DNA of 64,000 nt from Lachnospiraceae bacterium (lineage in GTDB: Bacteria > Bacillota > Clostridia > Lachnospirales > Lachnospiraceae): contig JAFRIW010000022.1 of assembly GCA_017432565.1 (NCBI GenBank), forward strand, positions 1 to 64,000, in the 5' to 3' direction. Positions 6,534 to 60,197 of this stretch are shown piece by piece. Under the pieces are notes generated by a model. The model was not told the DNA's origin and ran no database searches. It worked only from the letters and a program-made list of their open reading frames with translations. Every line of letters begins with the position of its first letter. Position 1 is the first letter of the stretch. Both the position numbers and the translations under genes were made by a program.

Positions 6534-8702
6534 ATGAAAAAGCTGTTTGGCATCAGGCCGGGCGGACTGAAAAGGAAAATGGCAATCCTTGTGCTGACAA
6601 TCCTGATTGTGACCGTTGCGGTTCTTTCAGTCTTCTCCGAGCTGCGGAGCAGGATCCTGACCCGGATTGTGGGAGAGACCCGGATCGAGCAGACTGCGGC
6701 GATTTCACAGGTCTCCGGGGATACCATGGACGCGATGATGAAGAGCGCGCTCGTCGATTCGATCGAGCTGCAGGCCAACATCGCGGACAATGACTTTACC
6801 GAAATCGTCAACGAGACTTACATGCTGCAGTCCATGGCGCAGGGTGTCATTGAAAACCGGGACAGTCTGGATCCCATGGAGGTTCTGCCGCCGGATCCGG
6901 AAAAGGACGGGGAGCCGTCGGTCATGGTCCTGTGCGAGGCAGGCGTGGACTACAAAAGGTCCAGGTATCTCGGGCTGATGGCGCACCTGGGCACGCCGAT
7001 GCTCGCGATGCTTGCGAATTCCGAGAAGATCGACGCCTGTTATGTCGGCCTCGCGGACGGGACATTTTTCTGCGTGGACGACAGCACGAAGAACCGGTTT
7101 GATGAGAACGGGAAGCTGAAAGCTTTTCCGGTGCGTGAGCGGCCCTGGTACAAAGGCGCGCTGGAGACAGGGCGGCTGTATTTTACGGGAATCGAGACGG
7201 ACGCCTTCAGCGGTGTACAGAGCCTGACCTGCTCTGCACCGATCATCGTGGACGGCAAGACGCTCGGCGTCGTCGGCATTGACATCATACTCGACAATAT
7301 GCGTGATTTTGTCCACTCCGCGTCAGGCGGCGGCAGTTATGCGTTTATTGTCAATCAGGCGGGAGAGGTTCTGCTCGCGCCGCCGGACAACGGCCTGTTT
7401 GAAATCGGACAGGATCTCGGAGCGTCCGAAAATGCGGAAGTGCAGGAATTTGTCCGGGAGGCGCTGGACAGCACGACACGGCTCGCGATTCTCACCCTGG
7501 GCGGAAAACAGTATTATGCGGCCGGCTCGCCCATGCCGACGGTCGGCTGGGCAGCGATTGCTTTGGTCGACAAGGAGATCACGGAGGCGCCGGAGAAGCA
7601 GATGCTGGCGGAATATGACCGGATCAATGAAGACGCGACGGCCGCCTTCCGGGCCAGCTCGGACCGGCTCAAATGGGCGAACCGCCTGGCGATCACACTG
7701 CTGCTGCTCTTCAGCATCGCCGTTGCGCTGCGCGCGGCGGGCAAAATCTCGCGTCCCCTCGAGGAGATGACCGACAATATCATTGACAGCAGCGAAACCG
7801 GAAGATTGTTCGAGATGAAGGACAGTTACCGGACCAATGATGAAATCGAAGTGCTGGCGCTGTCTTTTGACGAGTTGTCGAAGAGGACGAAGCAGTACAT
7901 CGAGGACATCACGCAGATCACAAAGGAAAAGGAGCGGGTCAGCACGGAGCTGAACATGGCAAATCAGATTCAGACCAGCATGCTGCCGCATATTTTCCCT
8001 GCGTTCCCGGACCGGAAGGAATTCGATCTGTATGCCAAAATGGACCCCGCGAGAGAGGTCGGCGGCGATTTCTATGACTTCTTCCTGATCGACGAGGATC
8101 ATCTGTGCATGGTCATGGCGGACGTGAGCGGCAAGGGCATTCCGGCGGCTCTGTTCATGATGATTTCCAAAGTCATCCTGCAGAGCTGCGCCATGCTGGG
8201 ACGGTCTCCTGCCGAAATTCTGGAGAAGACCAACGAGGCGCTGTGCTCCAGCAACCAGGTCGAGATGTTCGTCACGGTCTGGCTGGGAATCCTGGAGATC
8301 TCGACCGGAAAGATCACGGCGGCCAACGCCGGCCACGAATATCCCGCGATGACAAAAGACGGAACCTTCGAGCTGCTCAAGGGCAGACACGGTTTTGTCA
8401 TCGGCGGCCTGGAGGGCGTCGTCTATCACGAGTATGAACTGCAGATGAAGCCGGGCGATAAGCTGTTCCTGTACACCGACGGTGTGCCGGAGGCGACGGA
8501 TGCTCAGAATCAGATGTTCGGCACCGGCCGCATGCTCGAAGCCCTCAACCGGGAGAAGGATGCGGACTCGGAGAAAATCCTGGAGAATGTCCGGGAGGAT
8601 CTCGACAAATTTGTCAGCGGCGCGGAGCAGTTCGACGATCTGACCATGCTCTGCATCGAATACAACGGGGCGGACGTTAATAAGAATCAGACGCAGGAGT
8701 GA
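6534..8702 (+). CDS. Cache-HAMP-SpoIIE/PP2C phosphatase (RsbU-like)
   Basis: This 722-residue membrane phosphatase is predicted to sense an extracellular signal and dephosphorylate a STAS-type anti-anti-sigma factor. TM1 is at about 14-36. An extracytoplasmic dCache-like sensor spans about 40-378 (RERPWYKGAL and GVVGIDI are typical). TM2 is at about 383-403, HAMP at about 405-465, and the PP2C domain at about 490-715, with the metal-binding stretches EVGGDFYDFF and ADVSGKG and the C-terminal EQFDDLTML. The start follows GAAGAGGAG. A methyltransferase gene follows after 10 bases. No STAS or anti-sigma gene is adjacent, so the target lies elsewhere. It resembles the C-terminal half of the second SpoIIE protein at 60248-62620. 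Confidence 0.9.
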   Translation: MKKLFGIRPGGLKRKMAILVLTILIVTVAVLSVFSELRSRILTRIVGETRIEQTAAISQVSGDTMDAMMKSALVDSIELQANIADNDFTEIVNETYMLQSMAQGVIENRDSLDPMEVLPPDPEKDGEPSVMVLCEAGVDYKRSRYLGLMAHLGTPMLAMLANSEKIDACYVGLADGTFFCVDDSTKNRFDENGKLKAFPVRERPWYKGALETGRLYFTGIETDAFSGVQSLTCSAPIIVDGKTLGVVGIDIILDNMRDFVHSASGGGSYAFIVNQAGEVLLAPPDNGLFEIGQDLGASENAEVQEFVREALDSTTRLAILTLGGKQYYAAGSPMPTVGWAAIALVDKEITEAPEKQMLAEYDRINEDATAAFRASSDRLKWANRLAITLLLLFSIAVALRAAGKISRPLEEMTDNIIDSSETGRLFEMKDSYRTNDEIEVLALSFDELSKRTKQYIEDITQITKEKERVSTELNMANQIQTSMLPHIFPAFPDRKEFDLYAKMDPAREVGGDFYDFFLIDEDHLCMVMADVSGKGIPAALFMMISKVILQSCAMLGRSPAEILEKTNEALCSSNQVEMFVTVWLGILEISTGKITAANAGHEYPAMTKDGTFELLKGRHGFVIGGLEGVVYHEYELQMKPGDKLFLYTDGVPEATDAQNQMFGTGRMLEALNREKDADSEKILENVREDLDKFVSGAEQFDDLTMLCIEYNGADVNKNQTQE

Positions 8703-9983: not shown

Positions 9984-11369
9984 TCAGCTGCGCTGATTTT
10001 TCCACTTTCCGGAAAGGAAGAAGGTGCCGCCGATGACCAGCGGCATGAAGCCCGCGAGCGCATCGCCGTACCAGAAGCCCTGGGCGTGCATCTGCAGGCC
10101 AAAGCCGAAAAGCGCCGCCAGGCCGACCCGGGCGATCATACCGTCGAGGATGGCGACCAGGAGGTTCAGGCGGGAATTGCCGGAGCCGTTGATGATGGCG
10201 AAGGCACCGGATCTTGTCGCGGCGCCATAGGCATTTAAGACAATCGGAATAATGATCAGAGAGGATTCGGCCAGCACGGCTGCGTCCCGTGTGAACATCT
10301 CGCAGATCGCCTGCGGGAAGGCGAGAATCAGCGCGGAGACAGTGGTCGCGAAAATCAGGCCGAAGGCGCTGACATAGCCGATGATCTTCGGCACACGGTC
10401 GTAGCGCTCTGCGCCCAGATTTTGCCCGACCATGGAACTGCCGGCAGTGGTGAAGGAGTTGGAAACAATGCCCATCATCATGCCGGTTTTGTTATAGATA
10501 CCCGAAAGAGCGGAGTAGATCATGCCCTCGGCATTGATCCAGCTCGTCAGAACGATTTTGGAAATGTTGATGGAAGCGGACTGAATGGCCATCGGAACGC
10601 CCAGTGCCAGCAGCTTTTTCAGGACCGGAACATCAATTCTGAAGCTCTGCGGACGAAAGTCAAATCCGAAACTCTCCCGATGTCGATAAAGGTAAACCAG
10701 CGAGAAGATGAAGGACACCGCCTGTCCGATGACGGTCGCGAGCGCCGCGCCGAAGACTTCCATATGAAAGACGCCGACAAAGAGCAGATCCAGCACGGTG
10801 TTCAGGACGGCGGCGATGGCGATAAAGACGAAGGGCCTTTTGGAGTCTCCCATGCCGCGCAGAATCGCGGAGACGATGTTGTAGCCATAGATAAAGACCA
10901 GGCCGGCGATACAGGTCACCATGTAGGACATGGTGTAGTCGTAGGATTCCGTGGGGGTATTCAGCCAGTTCAGGATGGGCGTGCGGATCGCAAAGCATAG
11001 GAGGGCGATCGCTGCGGAGACCAGGAACAGGAAGGTGAACAGCGTGCCGATGAGTTTCTGCTGTTCGTCTTTGCGGCCGGCACCGACGGACTGGGCGATC
11101 AGGACCTGGCCTGCGCCGGAGAAGCCCATCGCCAGAAACGTCAGCAGGTGCAGCACGTCGCCGCCGATGGAGACCGCGCTCATGCCCGCGCCGCCGATCA
11201 GCTGTCCGACGACCATCATATCGACCAGGTTGTACACAGCCTGCAGCGCATTCGCGAAAAACAGCGGCAGGGCAAAAGCCAGCAGCTGCTTGGCCACACT
11301 CCCCGTTGTCAGATCCCTGACCATTGTTTTATTCTGAGATTTGTTCTGAGTCTGTTCCTGATCTGCCAT
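9984..11369 (-). CDS. MATE-family efflux transporter
   Basis: This 461-residue membrane protein has twelve hydrophobic segments in two halves, as expected for MATE exporters that expel drugs or metabolites using Na+ or H+ gradients. The NLVDMMVVG motif in helix 1 and the paired GxGxAxAT-like stretch (GAALATVIGQ) are typical. The N-terminus carries about 15 polar residues rich in Gln, Asn and Lys. AAGGAAG lies seven bases before the start. It is transcribed away from the HTH-receiver regulator, with an inverted repeat between them, which suggests control by that regulator. Confidence 0.9.
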   Translation of the reverse strand: MADQEQTQNKSQNKTMVRDLTTGSVAKQLLAFALPLFFANALQAVYNLVDMMVVGQLIGGAGMSAVSIGGDVLHLLTFLAMGFSGAGQVLIAQSVGAGRKDEQQKLIGTLFTFLFLVSAAIALLCFAIRTPILNWLNTPTESYDYTMSYMVTCIAGLVFIYGYNIVSAILRGMGDSKRPFVFIAIAAVLNTVLDLLFVGVFHMEVFGAALATVIGQAVSFIFSLVYLYRHRESFGFDFRPQSFRIDVPVLKKLLALGVPMAIQSASINISKIVLTSWINAEGMIYSALSGIYNKTGMMMGIVSNSFTTAGSSMVGQNLGAERYDRVPKIIGYVSAFGLIFATTVSALILAFPQAICEMFTRDAAVLAESSLIIIPIVLNAYGAATRSGAFAIINGSGNSRLNLLVAILDGMIARVGLAALFGFGLQMHAQGFWYGDALAGFMPLVIGGTFFLSGKWKNQRS

Positions 11370-12381: not shown

Positions 12382-13098
12382 TCAGTATCTGAGAACATTT
12401 CCCTGAAAATCCAGATAAGCCGGGGGACAGGACAGCTCGTGCGGTGTATCGAGCGCGGTCCTGAGAATGCCGGCTGCGGATTCTTCAGGGGTGACGGAGG
12501 CAGTGGTGTCCAGGTGGCCGCGCATATAAGTGGCCACGTGTCCGGGATGGATCTGAAGGACCAGGACGCCCTGCTTTTTCAGTGCGTTCTGCACGAGGGC
12601 TCCCTGCATATTGTTGGCGGATTTGGACAGGCAGTAGCCGAACCATCCCTCCCGCCAGCAGTCCTGAATGCTTCCGGCTTCCGAACTGATATTGACGATC
12701 ATTTTCTGTGTGCTGCGGCACACGTGGGAGGCGAGTGCGTTCGTCACGCGCAGGGTCCCGAGGGCGTTGACATTGATGACGCCCAGCATTTCATCAAAAT
12801 CCAAATCATCGCCCACGGTCCGCGTCATATCGCCGAGGATTCCCGCGTTGTTGATCAGAAGATCCAGGCAGGGGGTGGAGGCTGTGACGGTCTGCGCCAT
12901 CAGCCGGACCGATTCGTCGTCCCCGATGTTGAGATTCAGCACCTGCATCTGCCCGGGGTGGGCGGCTGCCAGTTCATCAATGGCTGTCTCTTTCTCATCA
13001 AAGCGGCAGGCCGTGACGAAATACCCGCGCTCCGCCAGCTGCCCCGCCAGCGCGAGGCCGACGCCGTGGTCTGCTCCCGTTACCAGTGCGTACATCAT
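12382..13098 (-). CDS. Short-chain dehydrogenase/reductase
   Basis: This 238-residue protein is a classical-type SDR with a Rossmann fold. The cofactor motif TGADHGVG is at residues 7-14, NNAG is near residue 86, and the catalytic Tyr155-x3-Lys159 (YCLSK) is preceded by the expected Ser (ISSEAG). The cofactor motif has HG in place of the usual SxGIG residues. The C-terminal stretch HPGHVATYM fits family members that act on small carbonyls or sugars; the substrate cannot be told. AAGGAG lies four to seven bases before two consecutive ATG codons, so the true start may be one codon later. It is convergent with the receiver-domain gene, with no gap. Confidence 0.85.
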   Translation of the reverse strand: MMYALVTGADHGVGLALAGQLAERGYFVTACRFDEKETAIDELAAAHPGQMQVLNLNIGDDESVRLMAQTVTASTPCLDLLINNAGILGDMTRTVGDDLDFDEMLGVINVNALGTLRVTNALASHVCRSTQKMIVNISSEAGSIQDCWREGWFGYCLSKSANNMQGALVQNALKKQGVLVLQIHPGHVATYMRGHLDTTASVTPEESAAGILRTALDTPHELSCPPAYLDFQGNVLRY

Positions 13099-56274: not shown

Positions 56275-56328
56275 GTGATAAAATGGACCGGTACAAGGGG
56301 ACATTTTTCTTTAGAGGAGAAGGAACAG

Positions 56329-57282
56329 ATGAACAGCCTGCGATTTCACCTGCCGGGGCTCCGGTATAATTTCCCGCTCAACATGATGTGGATCAGCCTG
56401 CTTGAGACCCATCCGGAATATTTCCGGGAGGGTGTCGAAATCGCTTCGATCTTCGGCACATTTCCGCCCGCAAAATGGAACGGCGGACGGTTCTGCGGAA
56501 ACGACCAGTGCGACGCTTCCTTTGTGCGCAGCGTTATCCGCAGCATCAATGAGAAGAAAATCCCGGTCCGGTATACCTTTACCAACCCGCTGATCACGAA
56601 GGCGGATCTGGAGGATCCGTTCTGCAATTTCTGCATGCGGGAAGCGGATAACGGTATGAACGAGGTCCTGGTCTTTTCACCGATTCTGGAGGAATATCTG
56701 CGCAGAAAGTATCCGGCTTTTGCCTACGACTCGACGACCTGCAAGGAAATCCGCGATGAAAAGGCTCTGGTGGAGGAACTGGAAAAGGACTACAAATATG
56801 TCGTTCTGGATTATAATCTGAACAACCACTGGGATCTTCTGGAGCGGCTTCCGCACAAGGAAAAGGTCGAAGTTCTGGTGAATCCGCTGTGCGTCCCGGA
56901 TTGCCCGCGCAGAGGAGACCATTATAAAAACGTGGCGAAGAATCAGGAAATCATGCTGAAAAACCGGAAACTCCCGCCGGACCGCCGGATTCCGCAGATT
57001 CCATGGACATGCGAGTACGGAGACAACAACTGTCTCTATACCATTCAGAATTATTCCACCTTTGTCTCGCCGGAGAAGATGGTGGAGGAATATCTGCCGC
57101 GCGGGATCAATAATTTCAAGATCGAGGGCAGAACAGCGAATCTGTTCTCCCTGATCGACACCTACTGCTTCTTCATGATCAAGCCGGAGCACCAGGGAAT
57201 GGCGCGTCTGCTTCTTTTGCGCAATCTGGAGCAGGCACGCGTGATCACCGTCAATAAACCCAGACCCGGCACTTGGCCGTAA
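56329..57282 (+). CDS. Conserved protein with C-x3-C-P-R-R motif, U32-like, function unknown
   Basis: This 317-residue soluble protein shares its plan with the next gene. Landmarks are GTFPPAKWNGGR, TNPLI, DNGMNEVLV, ILEEYLRRKYP, and Cys188-x3-Cys192 in CVPDCPRRGDHY. Near the C-terminus, NNFKIEGR resembles the KIEGR block of U32-type peptidase-like TIM-barrel proteins, so a U32-related, possibly Fe-S-binding fold is possible (inference). There are further Cys residues at FCNFCM and CEYGDNNC. The ATG at 56329 follows GAGGAG; a longer frame upstream crosses the terminator and is rejected. The reaction is unknown. Confidence 0.65.
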   Translation: MNSLRFHLPGLRYNFPLNMMWISLLETHPEYFREGVEIASIFGTFPPAKWNGGRFCGNDQCDASFVRSVIRSINEKKIPVRYTFTNPLITKADLEDPFCNFCMREADNGMNEVLVFSPILEEYLRRKYPAFAYDSTTCKEIRDEKALVEELEKDYKYVVLDYNLNNHWDLLERLPHKEKVEVLVNPLCVPDCPRRGDHYKNVAKNQEIMLKNRKLPPDRRIPQIPWTCEYGDNNCLYTIQNYSTFVSPEKMVEEYLPRGINNFKIEGRTANLFSLIDTYCFFMIKPEHQGMARLLLLRNLEQARVITVNKPRPGTWP

Positions 57283-57365: not shown

Positions 57366-58274
57366 ATGCAGGAAACGAAGAAAATCTACTGGCATCTGCC
57401 GGGCTTTTATGTTTATTTCTATCTGAATCAGATTATTCTGCATCTGATGCAGAGCAAGCCGGCATATTTTCATGAGGGCTACTGTGCAGGCAGTGTCTAT
57501 GGAACCTTCCCCGGTGCGATCTGGAACGGCGGAAGGGCGGTTTTCGGTCTTTCCTCCCACAGTGAAATGGAGCAGATCATTTCCACTTACAACCGGTTCG
57601 GCGTGCCGGTCCGCTTTACCTGGACGAATCCGCTGATCGAGGAAAAGCACCTGAATGACACCTACTGCAACCTGATCATGGATACGGCGGACAACGGCAT
57701 GAATCAGGTGCTGGTCAATGCACCGGTGCTGGAGGAATATCTGCGGGAGCGCTATCCGGATTTTGAATATATTTCTTCCACAACCAAGCGCATTACGGAT
57801 CTGAACAGGCTGGAAAAGGAGCTGGAAGGGAATTACAGGCTGGTCGTTCTGGACTATGACCTGAACCATGATGAAAGCGTACTGAAGGCGCTCTCGCCGT
57901 ATGCGGACCGGATCGAAATTCTCGCGGATGAGATCTGCTTCCCGAACTGCCCGCGGCGGGCAGAGCACTACCGGGACGAGGGGCTGATGCAGCTGACTTT
58001 TGAGAAGGGGAAGGTCTTCGACTGCCCGAACCGGAAAACGAAGCCGTCTTTCGCCGAGTGCAGAAAGCGCCCTGCCTTCATAAGCAGGGAGCAGATTCCG
58101 GAATACATTGAGAAGGGGTTCGTCAACTTCAAGCTGGTCGGCAGAGGACTGCCGATCGGGCTGGTAGTGGAGTCGTATCTGTATTATCTGGTAAAGGACG
58201 AGTACCGGCAGCAGGTGCAGGACAGAATCCGGAAGGATCTGGAAAAGCTGACCGGGCGCCGGCCTGACTTCTGA
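57366..58274 (+). CDS. Paralogue with C-x3-C-P-R-R motif, U32-like, function unknown
   Basis: This 302-residue protein is a diverged tandem copy of the preceding gene product. It keeps GTFPGAIWNGGR, TNPLI, DNGMNQVLV, VLEEYLRERYP and Cys191-x3-Cys195 in CFPNCPRRAEHY, and ends in a VNFKLVGR block where the first copy has NNFKIEGR. It lacks the extra Cys pairs of the first copy near the C-terminus. AGGAGG precedes the start. Conservation of the Cys/Arg/His block across both copies suggests a metal or Fe-S site; no function is known to me. Confidence 0.65.
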   Translation: MQETKKIYWHLPGFYVYFYLNQIILHLMQSKPAYFHEGYCAGSVYGTFPGAIWNGGRAVFGLSSHSEMEQIISTYNRFGVPVRFTWTNPLIEEKHLNDTYCNLIMDTADNGMNQVLVNAPVLEEYLRERYPDFEYISSTTKRITDLNRLEKELEGNYRLVVLDYDLNHDESVLKALSPYADRIEILADEICFPNCPRRAEHYRDEGLMQLTFEKGKVFDCPNRKTKPSFAECRKRPAFISREQIPEYIEKGFVNFKLVGRGLPIGLVVESYLYYLVKDEYRQQVQDRIRKDLEKLTGRRPDF

Positions 58275-58297: not shown

Positions 58298-60094
58298 TCA
58301 GATCCGCATCTGAAGCACGTTGATCCCCATCATGTTCTGATACTGAATGTCCCGCGCAATCTGATAGATCATGCGGATGCCGATATTCTTCGCGGGATCC
58401 GACGGATCCCTGAGCTCTTTCCGTGTGCCCGGATCGAAGGGCACGCAGTCGTCCTTGATGCGCAGAATGATGTCATCATTCTTATAGACCACACGCACAT
58501 CGATGGTGTGGCTCTTTTTGTCTTTGGTATAACCGTGATCAACGATGTTGCCGGCCATTTCCTCCAGCACGAGGCCGGAGAGATAGGATCTGCGCTCGTC
58601 GATTCCTTTGCCGAGGCAGAAGTCCTGGACCTGCCGGGAAATCGTGACGACCTCGTGCATCTCCCGGACGGACAGATCCAGCCGGTCTTCTGCCGGTGCG
58701 CCGAAATCCTCCGGGATCACCATCAGCTCGTCCATGGTCTTCGGGAAGCGCCGGTTCATGAAAATCGAGTAGACAAGGACCGTCAGGTCTGTCACCACAC
58801 CGTTCAGGATATTGGCGATGTAAGCACTGTTCATGCCGATCGAACGAATGAGCAGGGCCGTAAAGCCGGCTACGCAGACGACGCCGTCCAGCACGGACAG
58901 AAGATTGACCAGGAAGTTCTTTCCGCTCGCCTGGGCATAGGCGATGAAGTGCATGCAGATAACGGAGAAGGGCATACACAGCGGCAGAAGCCGGAAGGCC
59001 CAGACGGTCATGTCATAGACCGGTTCTGAGGGATCCTTGAAGAAAATCAGGGTCAGGGGTACGGCGAGCGCCGAGAGCACGATGGACAGAAGGCACTGAA
59101 TCGGCACGAAGCGCCTGAACATGATGCGGAACAGGTCGGTCAGTGTCTGCCGGTCTTCTTCGCCGATGCTGACGCCGATCAGCATGCGGGAGACCGCGAC
59201 CATGCCCAGCGGAACCGCCCAGAAAATTGCCAGCATATTGTTGGCGGCGGCAAAAGCCGACACGCCGTCACTGCCCACATAAGCCTCAATCAGCTTGTTG
59301 ACGATCAGGCCCCTGGCGGACTGGCACAGGTTGCTGAGCGCGCCGGGCAGACCGATGGAAAGAATGATGAGCATTTCGGCAGCTTTCGCAAGGCGGAACT
59401 TGATCTTCAGGTGAGCGCTTCCGGTAAAGAAATACTGTGCCTGGACGGCAAACAGGATCCAGAGGCCGACGGACGAAGCCAGGGCCAGTCCGAAGATCCC
59501 GAGATGCAGGACACCGACCAGCAGGAAGTTGAGCACAAGACTGGAAACAGCGTAGACGATGCTCGCGTAGACAGAGAGCTTCTCCTTATGCTCCGTGAGC
59601 AGGTAAACCGGCATCTGGTTACCCAGCATGAGGGGCAGCACACCGAAGGCCTGTCCCAGCAGGTACTGATTGAAGAGGGGGCGTACTGCTTCGTCCGTCA
59701 CCAGAAAACCGGTCAGGTTGAAAGCCCCCATGATCACCAGCGACACGATAAAGATGACGGCGATGACCGCGGCCAGCAGAAGACTCGTGGAAAAGTTTTC
59801 CTGCAGCTTTTCCTGGTCGTTCTGTCCCAGATATCTGCCGCACAGAATACTGCACCCGCCGGTGAGAATGATGCTGACCGCGCCGACCAGCATGGAGACG
59901 GGCCAGTAGACACCGACGGCACTCATGGCATCCACGCCGAGAAAATTCGTCGCGAAATAACTGGAGATCATGCCGTTCAGCATGCCAACCCCGATTGTCA
60001 GAATCTGGATGGGCAGCAGGCGGAAAACAAGCTTCCGGAGCATGACGGAACCGGAATCCCGGATTTTCTCCTGTATATTGTCCTGTATATTCAT
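58298..60094 (-). CDS. MATE transporter fused to RsbW-like HATPase domain
   Basis: This 598-residue protein carries a complete MATE-type transporter of about twelve helices (about 20-465), followed without a frame break by a cytoplasmic ATPase domain of the RsbW/SpoIIAB kind (about 475-598). The ATPase shows the N-box EEMAGNIVDHGY with Glu511/512 and Asn516, the G1 motif IKDDCVPFDP with Asp548/549, and the G2-like KNIGIRMI. Such domains phosphorylate STAS proteins and bind sigma factors. The ATG at 60094 follows AAGGAGG; an upstream in-frame ATG has no site. It is divergent from a SpoIIE phosphatase, the natural opponent of an RsbW kinase. The transported substrate is unknown. Confidence 0.85.
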   Translation of the reverse strand: MNIQDNIQEKIRDSGSVMLRKLVFRLLPIQILTIGVGMLNGMISSYFATNFLGVDAMSAVGVYWPVSMLVGAVSIILTGGCSILCGRYLGQNDQEKLQENFSTSLLLAAVIAVIFIVSLVIMGAFNLTGFLVTDEAVRPLFNQYLLGQAFGVLPLMLGNQMPVYLLTEHKEKLSVYASIVYAVSSLVLNFLLVGVLHLGIFGLALASSVGLWILFAVQAQYFFTGSAHLKIKFRLAKAAEMLIILSIGLPGALSNLCQSARGLIVNKLIEAYVGSDGVSAFAAANNMLAIFWAVPLGMVAVSRMLIGVSIGEEDRQTLTDLFRIMFRRFVPIQCLLSIVLSALAVPLTLIFFKDPSEPVYDMTVWAFRLLPLCMPFSVICMHFIAYAQASGKNFLVNLLSVLDGVVCVAGFTALLIRSIGMNSAYIANILNGVVTDLTVLVYSIFMNRRFPKTMDELMVIPEDFGAPAEDRLDLSVREMHEVVTISRQVQDFCLGKGIDERRSYLSGLVLEEMAGNIVDHGYTKDKKSHTIDVRVVYKNDDIILRIKDDCVPFDPGTRKELRDPSDPAKNIGIRMIYQIARDIQYQNMMGINVLQMRI

Positions 60095-60165
60095 GGCGGC
60101 CTCCTTCTGCAGCGGTATCTGAATGATCATTCTTCAGAAAAAGGATTATATTGAAATTCAATCTG

Positions 60166-60197
60166 ATTATACAAAAGACGGCACTTTTTTGTATAAT
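60166..60197. promoter_or_regulatory. Mirror-image overlapping divergent promoters
   Basis: ATTATACAAAA (60166-60176) and TTTTGTATAAT (60187-60197) form a perfect 11-bp inverted repeat. On the plus strand TATACA (60168-60173) and TATAAT (60192-60197), 18 bases apart, make a promoter toward the SpoIIE gene. On the minus strand TATACA (60190-60195) and TATAAT (60166-60171) make the same promoter toward the MATE-ATPase gene. The two cannot be occupied together. Confidence 0.65.

Follow-up and report, generated by a model that had tools for sequence, protein, structure and literature searches.

The usual view of partner-switching kinases is one of small, soluble proteins whose circuits receive their signals via the phosphatase or a stressosome. 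SpoIIAB, RsbW and UsfX combine a GHKL fold of switch-kinase topology with a catalytic Glu, a Mg-site Asn and the company of STAS and SpoIIE genes; the protein described here shares these features, but it is fused into the membrane, has atypical G1 and G2 glycines, and is encoded by a genome without a SigB, SigF or SigG target and, in the window (the 64,000-nucleotide stretch of Lachnospiraceae DNA that was analysed), without a STAS gene alongside. SiaABCD and other non-sigma partner-switching systems likewise have a SpoIIE-type membrane phosphatase, a switch kinase (SiaB) and no sigma target, the kinase being soluble there and fused to a transporter here. On the transporter side, DinF-type MATEs (PfMATE, 3vvn and 6gwh; DinF-BH, 4lz6) have the same 12-TM MOP/MATE fold at 19-21% identity; the fusion differs from them in its C-terminal switch-kinase domain, in Ser and Asn where they have the TM1 and TM5 Asp, and in H382, D403 and the acidic loop at 312-314, which are newly conserved. 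A partner-switching-type domain is also fused to SLC26/SulP transporters, as a C-terminal STAS domain, but theirs is the substrate rather than the kinase domain and their transporter fold is unrelated. In CbrA and CrbS, the SLC5-STAC histidine-kinase transceptors, a transporter fold is joined covalently to a regulatory kinase (PMC13022988, PMC7096432). These two are a precedent for a transceptor, from which the fusion differs in having MATE instead of SLC5, a putative Ser kinase acting on STAS with no HisKA or receiver domain, and a different output logic. Both of its domains are known, and in the open-access literature we found no description of a partner-switching kinase joined to a transporter, whether MATE or another. 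If a kinase does operate within a transporter, either the signal enters via the kinase itself or the switch controls export directly; the family suggests that a direct link between such a kinase and a sensor or exporter in the membrane can exist.

The fused gene and its two domains

An uninterrupted frame on the minus strand spans 58298-60130 and encodes both domains, as the earlier note had proposed (Table 1). Translation could begin at an ATG at 60130, giving a longer form, or at 60094, which is the likely start because an AAGGAGG ribosome-binding site 5 nt 5' of it favours the shorter form. Pfam finds MatE (two stretches, 85.3 bits against a cut-off of 24.9) and HATPase_c_2 (residues 481-597, 48.7 bits against 27.4) and nothing else, with no SLC5, STAC or HisKA domain. 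An AlphaFold2 model of the full-length protein, made from 61 fusions, has a mean pLDDT of 91 and a pTM of 0.88, and the junction between the domains passes without a low-confidence stretch.

Table 1. Positions in the window of the fusion gene, its domains and residues, and the adjoining features
Feature	Position	Strand	Basis
Fusion CDS, 598 aa: MATE transporter with C-terminal switch-kinase (HATPase_c_2) domain	58298..60094	-	ORF, RBS, Pfam, AlphaFold2, relatives
Switch-kinase domain, residues 471-598	58301..58684	-	PF13581 9.4e-13; fold match Z 14-16
G2-type motif NIGI, residues 570-573	58376..58387	-	Fusion alignment
G1-type motif RIKDDCVPFDP	58430..58462	-	D548 81/81 in window clade
N-box LVLEEMAGNIVDHG	58532..58573	-	E511, E512 invariant in 102 fusions; N516 81/81 in window clade
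MATE domain, residues 12-466, 12 TM helices	58697..60061	-	PF01554 4.8e-24; PfMATE Z 38
D403 in TM11	58886..58888	-	79/81 (plus 2 Glu) in window clade; ordinary MATEs mostly Arg
H382 in TM10	58949..58951	-	81/81 in window clade, not conserved elsewhere
Cytosolic TM8-TM9 loop E312-E313-D314, family-specific	59153..59161	-	Alignment
N189, position of PfMATE D184 (TM5)	59528..59530	-	Alignment
S44, position of PfMATE D41 (TM1 proton site)	59963..59965	-	Alignment
Perfect 11-bp inverted repeat ATTATACAAAA-10 nt-TTTTGTATAAT, between the divergent fusion and SpoIIE genes	60166..60197	.	
Divergent SpoIIE-family (PP2C) phosphatase, 790 aa	60248..62620	+	PF07228 2.2e-47

Modelled by itself with 45 relatives (pLDDT 92), the C-terminal domain gives fold matches of Z 14-16 to UsfX, RsbW and SpoIIAB, of 13.8 to Rv1364c and of 12.8 to SiaB, and of 8.7 or less to histidine kinases; a histidine kinase is ruled out by this fold class and by the missing HisKA domain. 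A phmmer search of the domain alone against the PDB returned no relative, but the family profile reaches RsbW by sequence (E 0.004) and, more weakly, SpoIIAB (E 0.08-0.11). The fusion joins a MATE fold to a SpoIIAB/RsbW-type domain, and the concern that the C-terminal region might fail to match HATPase folds falls away, since it matches the GHKL switch kinases.

Residue conservation was counted over 102 fusions, comprising 81 from the window clade (close relatives) and 21 distant ones, and over a set of 34 ordinary MATEs; the sampled genomes are related, so that fusion counts do not represent independent events. The N-, G1- and G2-type motifs reported earlier hold in part. The N-box is classical (E512...N516), and the catalytic Glu E512, the Mg-binding Asn N516 and the G1 Asp D548 are all present, but G1 (D548-D-C-V-P-F) has Cys and Pro in place of the usual glycines and G2 reads N-I-G-I, with G572 in 81/81 of the window clade. 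ATP binding is uncertain because of the replaced glycines. These counts show a kinase signature under strong constraint. The window domain is probably an active kinase.

The MATE domain superposes on PfMATE (3wbn) with Z 38.3 and an rmsd of 2.8 over 433 residues of the model, a 12-TM MOP fold. At the position of PfMATE D41, the window clade (n=81) has Ser in 76, Thr in 4 and Ala in 1; Asp occupies it in 19/21 distant fusions and 33/34 of the ordinary set. The position of D184 is Asn in 77 of the 81, and Asp in 17/21 and 29/34, respectively. In DinF-BH, D40A is inactive and D184N cannot transport (PMC4866600), and in PfMATE D41 and D184 belong to a hydrogen-bond network that bends TM1 (PMC12358922). 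By alignment, the DinF-type proton-coupling Asp pair has been replaced in the window clade; of the 'full MATE transporter' first described, the complete fold therefore stands and the N-lobe coupling pair does not. NorM-type MATEs carry Asn at the second site and have other coupling sites, which leaves room for a different transport route. Given this precedent, and the two newly conserved C-lobe residues of the window clade (H382 and D403), a missing Asp pair is no proof that transport has been lost. The cytosolic TM8-TM9 loop marks the family as a whole: E312 is present in 98/102 fusions, the ordinary set has Ala there in 30/34, and the only 3 'controls' with Glu at this position are misfiled family members.

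Distribution and gene company of the family

A scan of GTDB genomes returned at least 557 matching loci; the best 80 of these all come from genomes of Clostridia type, for the most part MAGs from the rumen and gut, with two named isolate assemblies among them. Among 60 relatives, about 20 genomes of the same genus carry a full- or near-full-length fusion, and the window genome itself holds a second, distant MATE-kinase fusion on contig C16 (24% identity). One same-genus fusion (L048:7662-9443, G034:C37) is broken by an in-frame TAG, or is recoded. In the MATE-domain tree 36/36 fusions fall in one clade, well apart from 31 ordinary MATEs, and the fused and non-fused labels need 2 changes; the supposed controls L193, L045 and L064 nest within the fusion clade, but all three proteins are long and two end in a degenerate kinase-like region. 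Repeated independent fusion is unsupported, given the 2 label changes and the length of these nested 'non-fused' proteins. The tree points to a single ancient fusion clade, an old family spread over hundreds of gut and rumen Clostridia. Against the nearest relative, the MATE part has a dN/dS of 0.18 and the kinase part, the more conserved of the two, one of 0.12 (amino acid identity 72 and 88%, respectively); these ratios indicate purifying selection on both.

The distant fusions show the reverse trend to the window clade: N516 is kept in 12/21, the kinase motif is often degenerate and the transporter Asp is mostly kept. A strict rule, by which the kinase would be intact only where the transporter Asp is lost and vice versa, was dropped because both are retained in several of the distant fusions. 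One clade that lost its coupling residues and kept its kinase motifs, set against others that tend the opposite way, amounts to a natural experiment on the passage from transporter to receptor.

STAS, SpoIIE and HATPase genes accompany the fusion family. At least one such gene (the HATPase counted only if free) lies within 3 kb of 32/107 fusions, on the same strand in 30, compared with 0/34 non-fused MATE genes (Fisher p = 1.5e-4, three misfiled controls left out). In same-genus relatives a partner gene of any kind is found within 3 kb in 6/28, and pairing with SpoIIE is rare; at 8/8 loci sampled evenly across the phylum in other genera, partner-switching genes lie within the same operon, typically ordered STAS - (enzyme) - fusion - SpoIIE - (HATPase). 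The spacing can be tight: STAS precedes the fusion by 9 bp in L112 (SpoIIE - STAS - fusion) and by 17 bp in L106, and the SpoIIE gene of L129 shares a few bp with the fusion. Neither L112 nor L106 has a second HATPase close by, and the fusion is therefore the natural kinase of these cassettes. The phospho-acceptor Ser of SpoIIAA/RsbV-type proteins (S54) is kept in 50/50 aligned STAS domains. Other cassettes (L061, L207, L208, L211) have a separate HATPase in the operon and a fused domain without key N-box or G1 residues. Enzymes found in cassettes include a GH3 amido-synthetase (L061, L213), an ATP-grasp protein (L213), an acetyltransferase (L211), NRPS modules with a STAS-condensation fusion (L216) and STAS-APH proteins (L113 and others). 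The link to partner switching, first drawn from a single neighbouring gene, now extends to operons across the phylum, and it is very probable that the window fusion belongs to such a system.

Several of these loci hold further arrangements. In L061 (1-17001, G052:C23) the STAS-GH3-fusion-SpoIIE-HATPase series lies directly upstream of a gene with an eCIS_core domain, suggesting a cluster of contractile-injection type; a second, similar copy of that gene follows. In L216 (1-8352, G089:C2), partner switching is apparently wired into a biosynthetic cluster: a fusion of STAS with an NRPS condensation domain comes first, then an NRPS module and the MATE-kinase fusion.

At the window locus the divergent neighbour, previously called a SpoIIE phosphatase, is one: it keeps the phosphatase motifs GGDFYD, DVSDKG, YTDG and DDLT, and matches the SiaA model at 1.6e-20, below that model's cut-off. 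The inverted repeat between the two genes is single-copy in the genome and has a promoter-like -35/-10 pair on each strand by sequence match; with opposed putative promoters, it would couple expression of the fusion and SpoIIE. The palindrome could also overlay two opposed promoters such that the two directions fire only in alternation, never together.

The genome as a whole has 7 clear SpoIIE phosphatases (an eighth match is weak), only 2 STAS genes and no free RsbW/SpoIIAB-type kinase; every clear HATPase_c_2 domain in it is part of a fusion (two MATE-kinase, one SpoIIE-kinase). Neither STAS gene adjoins the window fusion, so a STAS partner must act in trans. On contig C57, a 98-residue STAS protein (about 12394-12690) with no intact kinase alongside is the substrate candidate we infer to be best for the window kinase. 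A 220-residue protein without a Pfam match precedes this lone STAS (L094:8395-9368, G000:C57) and by eye looks like a degenerate GHKL domain, making the two a candidate partner pair. On contig C36 (L093:7493-10898, G000), a SpoIIE-HATPase fusion (718 aa) is followed by a 393-residue protein that joins STAS to a phosphotransferase of APH type; L131, L139 and L147 have comparable pairs, and L113 encodes a STAS-APH-HATPase triple fusion.

Possible roles of the fusion

The reading we favour, and to which we give about an even chance, is that the window protein is a membrane-anchored STAS kinase whose MATE part is a ligand-responsive sensor and whose action is opposed by the divergent SpoIIE; kinase activity, substrate, ligand and direction of control are all parts of this reading that we infer. 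The C-terminal domain would phosphorylate a STAS protein from another part of the genome at its conserved Ser, the C57 protein being the best candidate, and the SpoIIE phosphatase would reverse the modification. The MATE part would no longer perform its usual H+/drug antiport cycle. A conserved polar cavity would hold its specific ligand, and its conformation, relayed by the acidic TM8-TM9 loop, would set the activity of the cytosolic kinase (a 'transceptor'). In favour of this reading stand the folds of the two domains, the single fusion clade with both parts under purifying selection, the company of partner-switching genes, including cassettes whose sole kinase is the fusion, the retained Ser of the STAS partners, the constrained kinase motifs, the replaced Asp pair, the lack of a SigB/F/G above the cut-off and the lack of a free switch kinase in the genome. 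For the MATE part being a receptor rather than an exporter, taken alone, we put the chances at even or slightly better. Output would probably not be a SigB/F-type regulon, as no such sigma factor passes the cut-off (see below), and likely effectors would be proteins with STAS or HATPase domains of their own. Several observations weigh against a sensor kinase: no STAS gene lies beside the window fusion, partner genes are near only ~30% of sampled fusions and SpoIIE pairing is rare within the genus, the replaced G1/G2 glycines leave ATP binding uncertain, and the distant fusions, with their partial N516 and retained Asp, fit a regulated exporter better.

In that main rival, which we hold possible at clearly less than even odds, the MATE would export a specific small molecule and the kinase-like domain would serve for docking and gating: binding of unphosphorylated STAS would turn export on or off, with SpoIIE and a kinase setting the state of the STAS protein. 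The small-molecule enzymes in the cassettes of L061, L213, L216, L211, L113 and others speak for it, as do the coupling Asp pair of distant members and the fused domains of L061, L207, L208 and L211, degenerate in the manner of a binding-only pseudokinase. The window clade, with invariant kinase motifs and a lost Asp pair, is the opposite of what it predicts, and Pfam recognised no biosynthetic enzyme next to the window gene. We think that in some distant lineages, those with GH3, NRPS, ATP-grasp or acetyltransferase cassettes, the fusion is a STAS-gated exporter. A tentative synthesis, to which we assign somewhat less than an even chance, is that a decoupled MATE fold serves here as the membrane receptor of a ligand-gated STAS kinase, directly setting the activity of the fused domain in a sigma-free signalling route, and that the same ancestral fusion yielded STAS-gated exporters elsewhere. 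Both ideas are testable because the family is large and old, lies in defined operons and includes cultured isolates.

It is unlikely that the two domains lack functional coupling, an independent transporter merely localising the kinase to the membrane. They form distinct units in the model and ~70% of fusions have no partner genes nearby, but the fusions form one clade, share the family-specific loop E312-E313-D314, and show clade-specific transporter changes alongside invariant kinase motifs.

Less probable still is a classical anti-sigma factor, with the MATE as membrane tether and a SigB/F-type sigma freed by partner switching. The earlier label 'RsbW-like anti-sigma' retains its fold, which matches RsbW, SpoIIAB and UsfX, and the SpoIIE neighbour would suit it; the RsbW equivalog model, however, scores 19.9 bits against a cut-off of 145, and no SigB, SigF or SigG passes the curated cut-off in the window's own genome or in any of the 41 genus genomes searched (0/41). 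The best sigma match per genome, at ~135 bits against a cut-off of 234, is probably the housekeeping sigma. A SigB/F anti-sigma identity is unsupported, there being no cognate sigma over the cut-off in the genome or its congeners; an alternative or the primary sigma may be a target of the window kinase.

An assembly or annotation artefact, such as the frameshift or join near 58700 that the earlier note had considered, has a negligible probability and is ruled out by an intact fused frame at more than 100 other loci in many genomes, including those of the isolates Butyrivibrio sp. LC3010 and Lachnospiraceae P6B14, and by purifying selection on both parts, with nothing found in its favour in a window assembly that is a draft of 64 contigs.

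The window contains other genes of related type. A second SpoIIE phosphatase with a different N-terminal type lies at 6534-8702 (+), and ~1.3 kb past it is an ordinary 461-residue MATE without a kinase domain (9984-11369, -). Next to the fusion are tandem genes (56275-57282 and 57366-58274, +) for mutually similar proteins of ~300-335 aa; a weak peptidase-U32 match appears in the second only, and the pair also lies beside the fusion in L039/L169.
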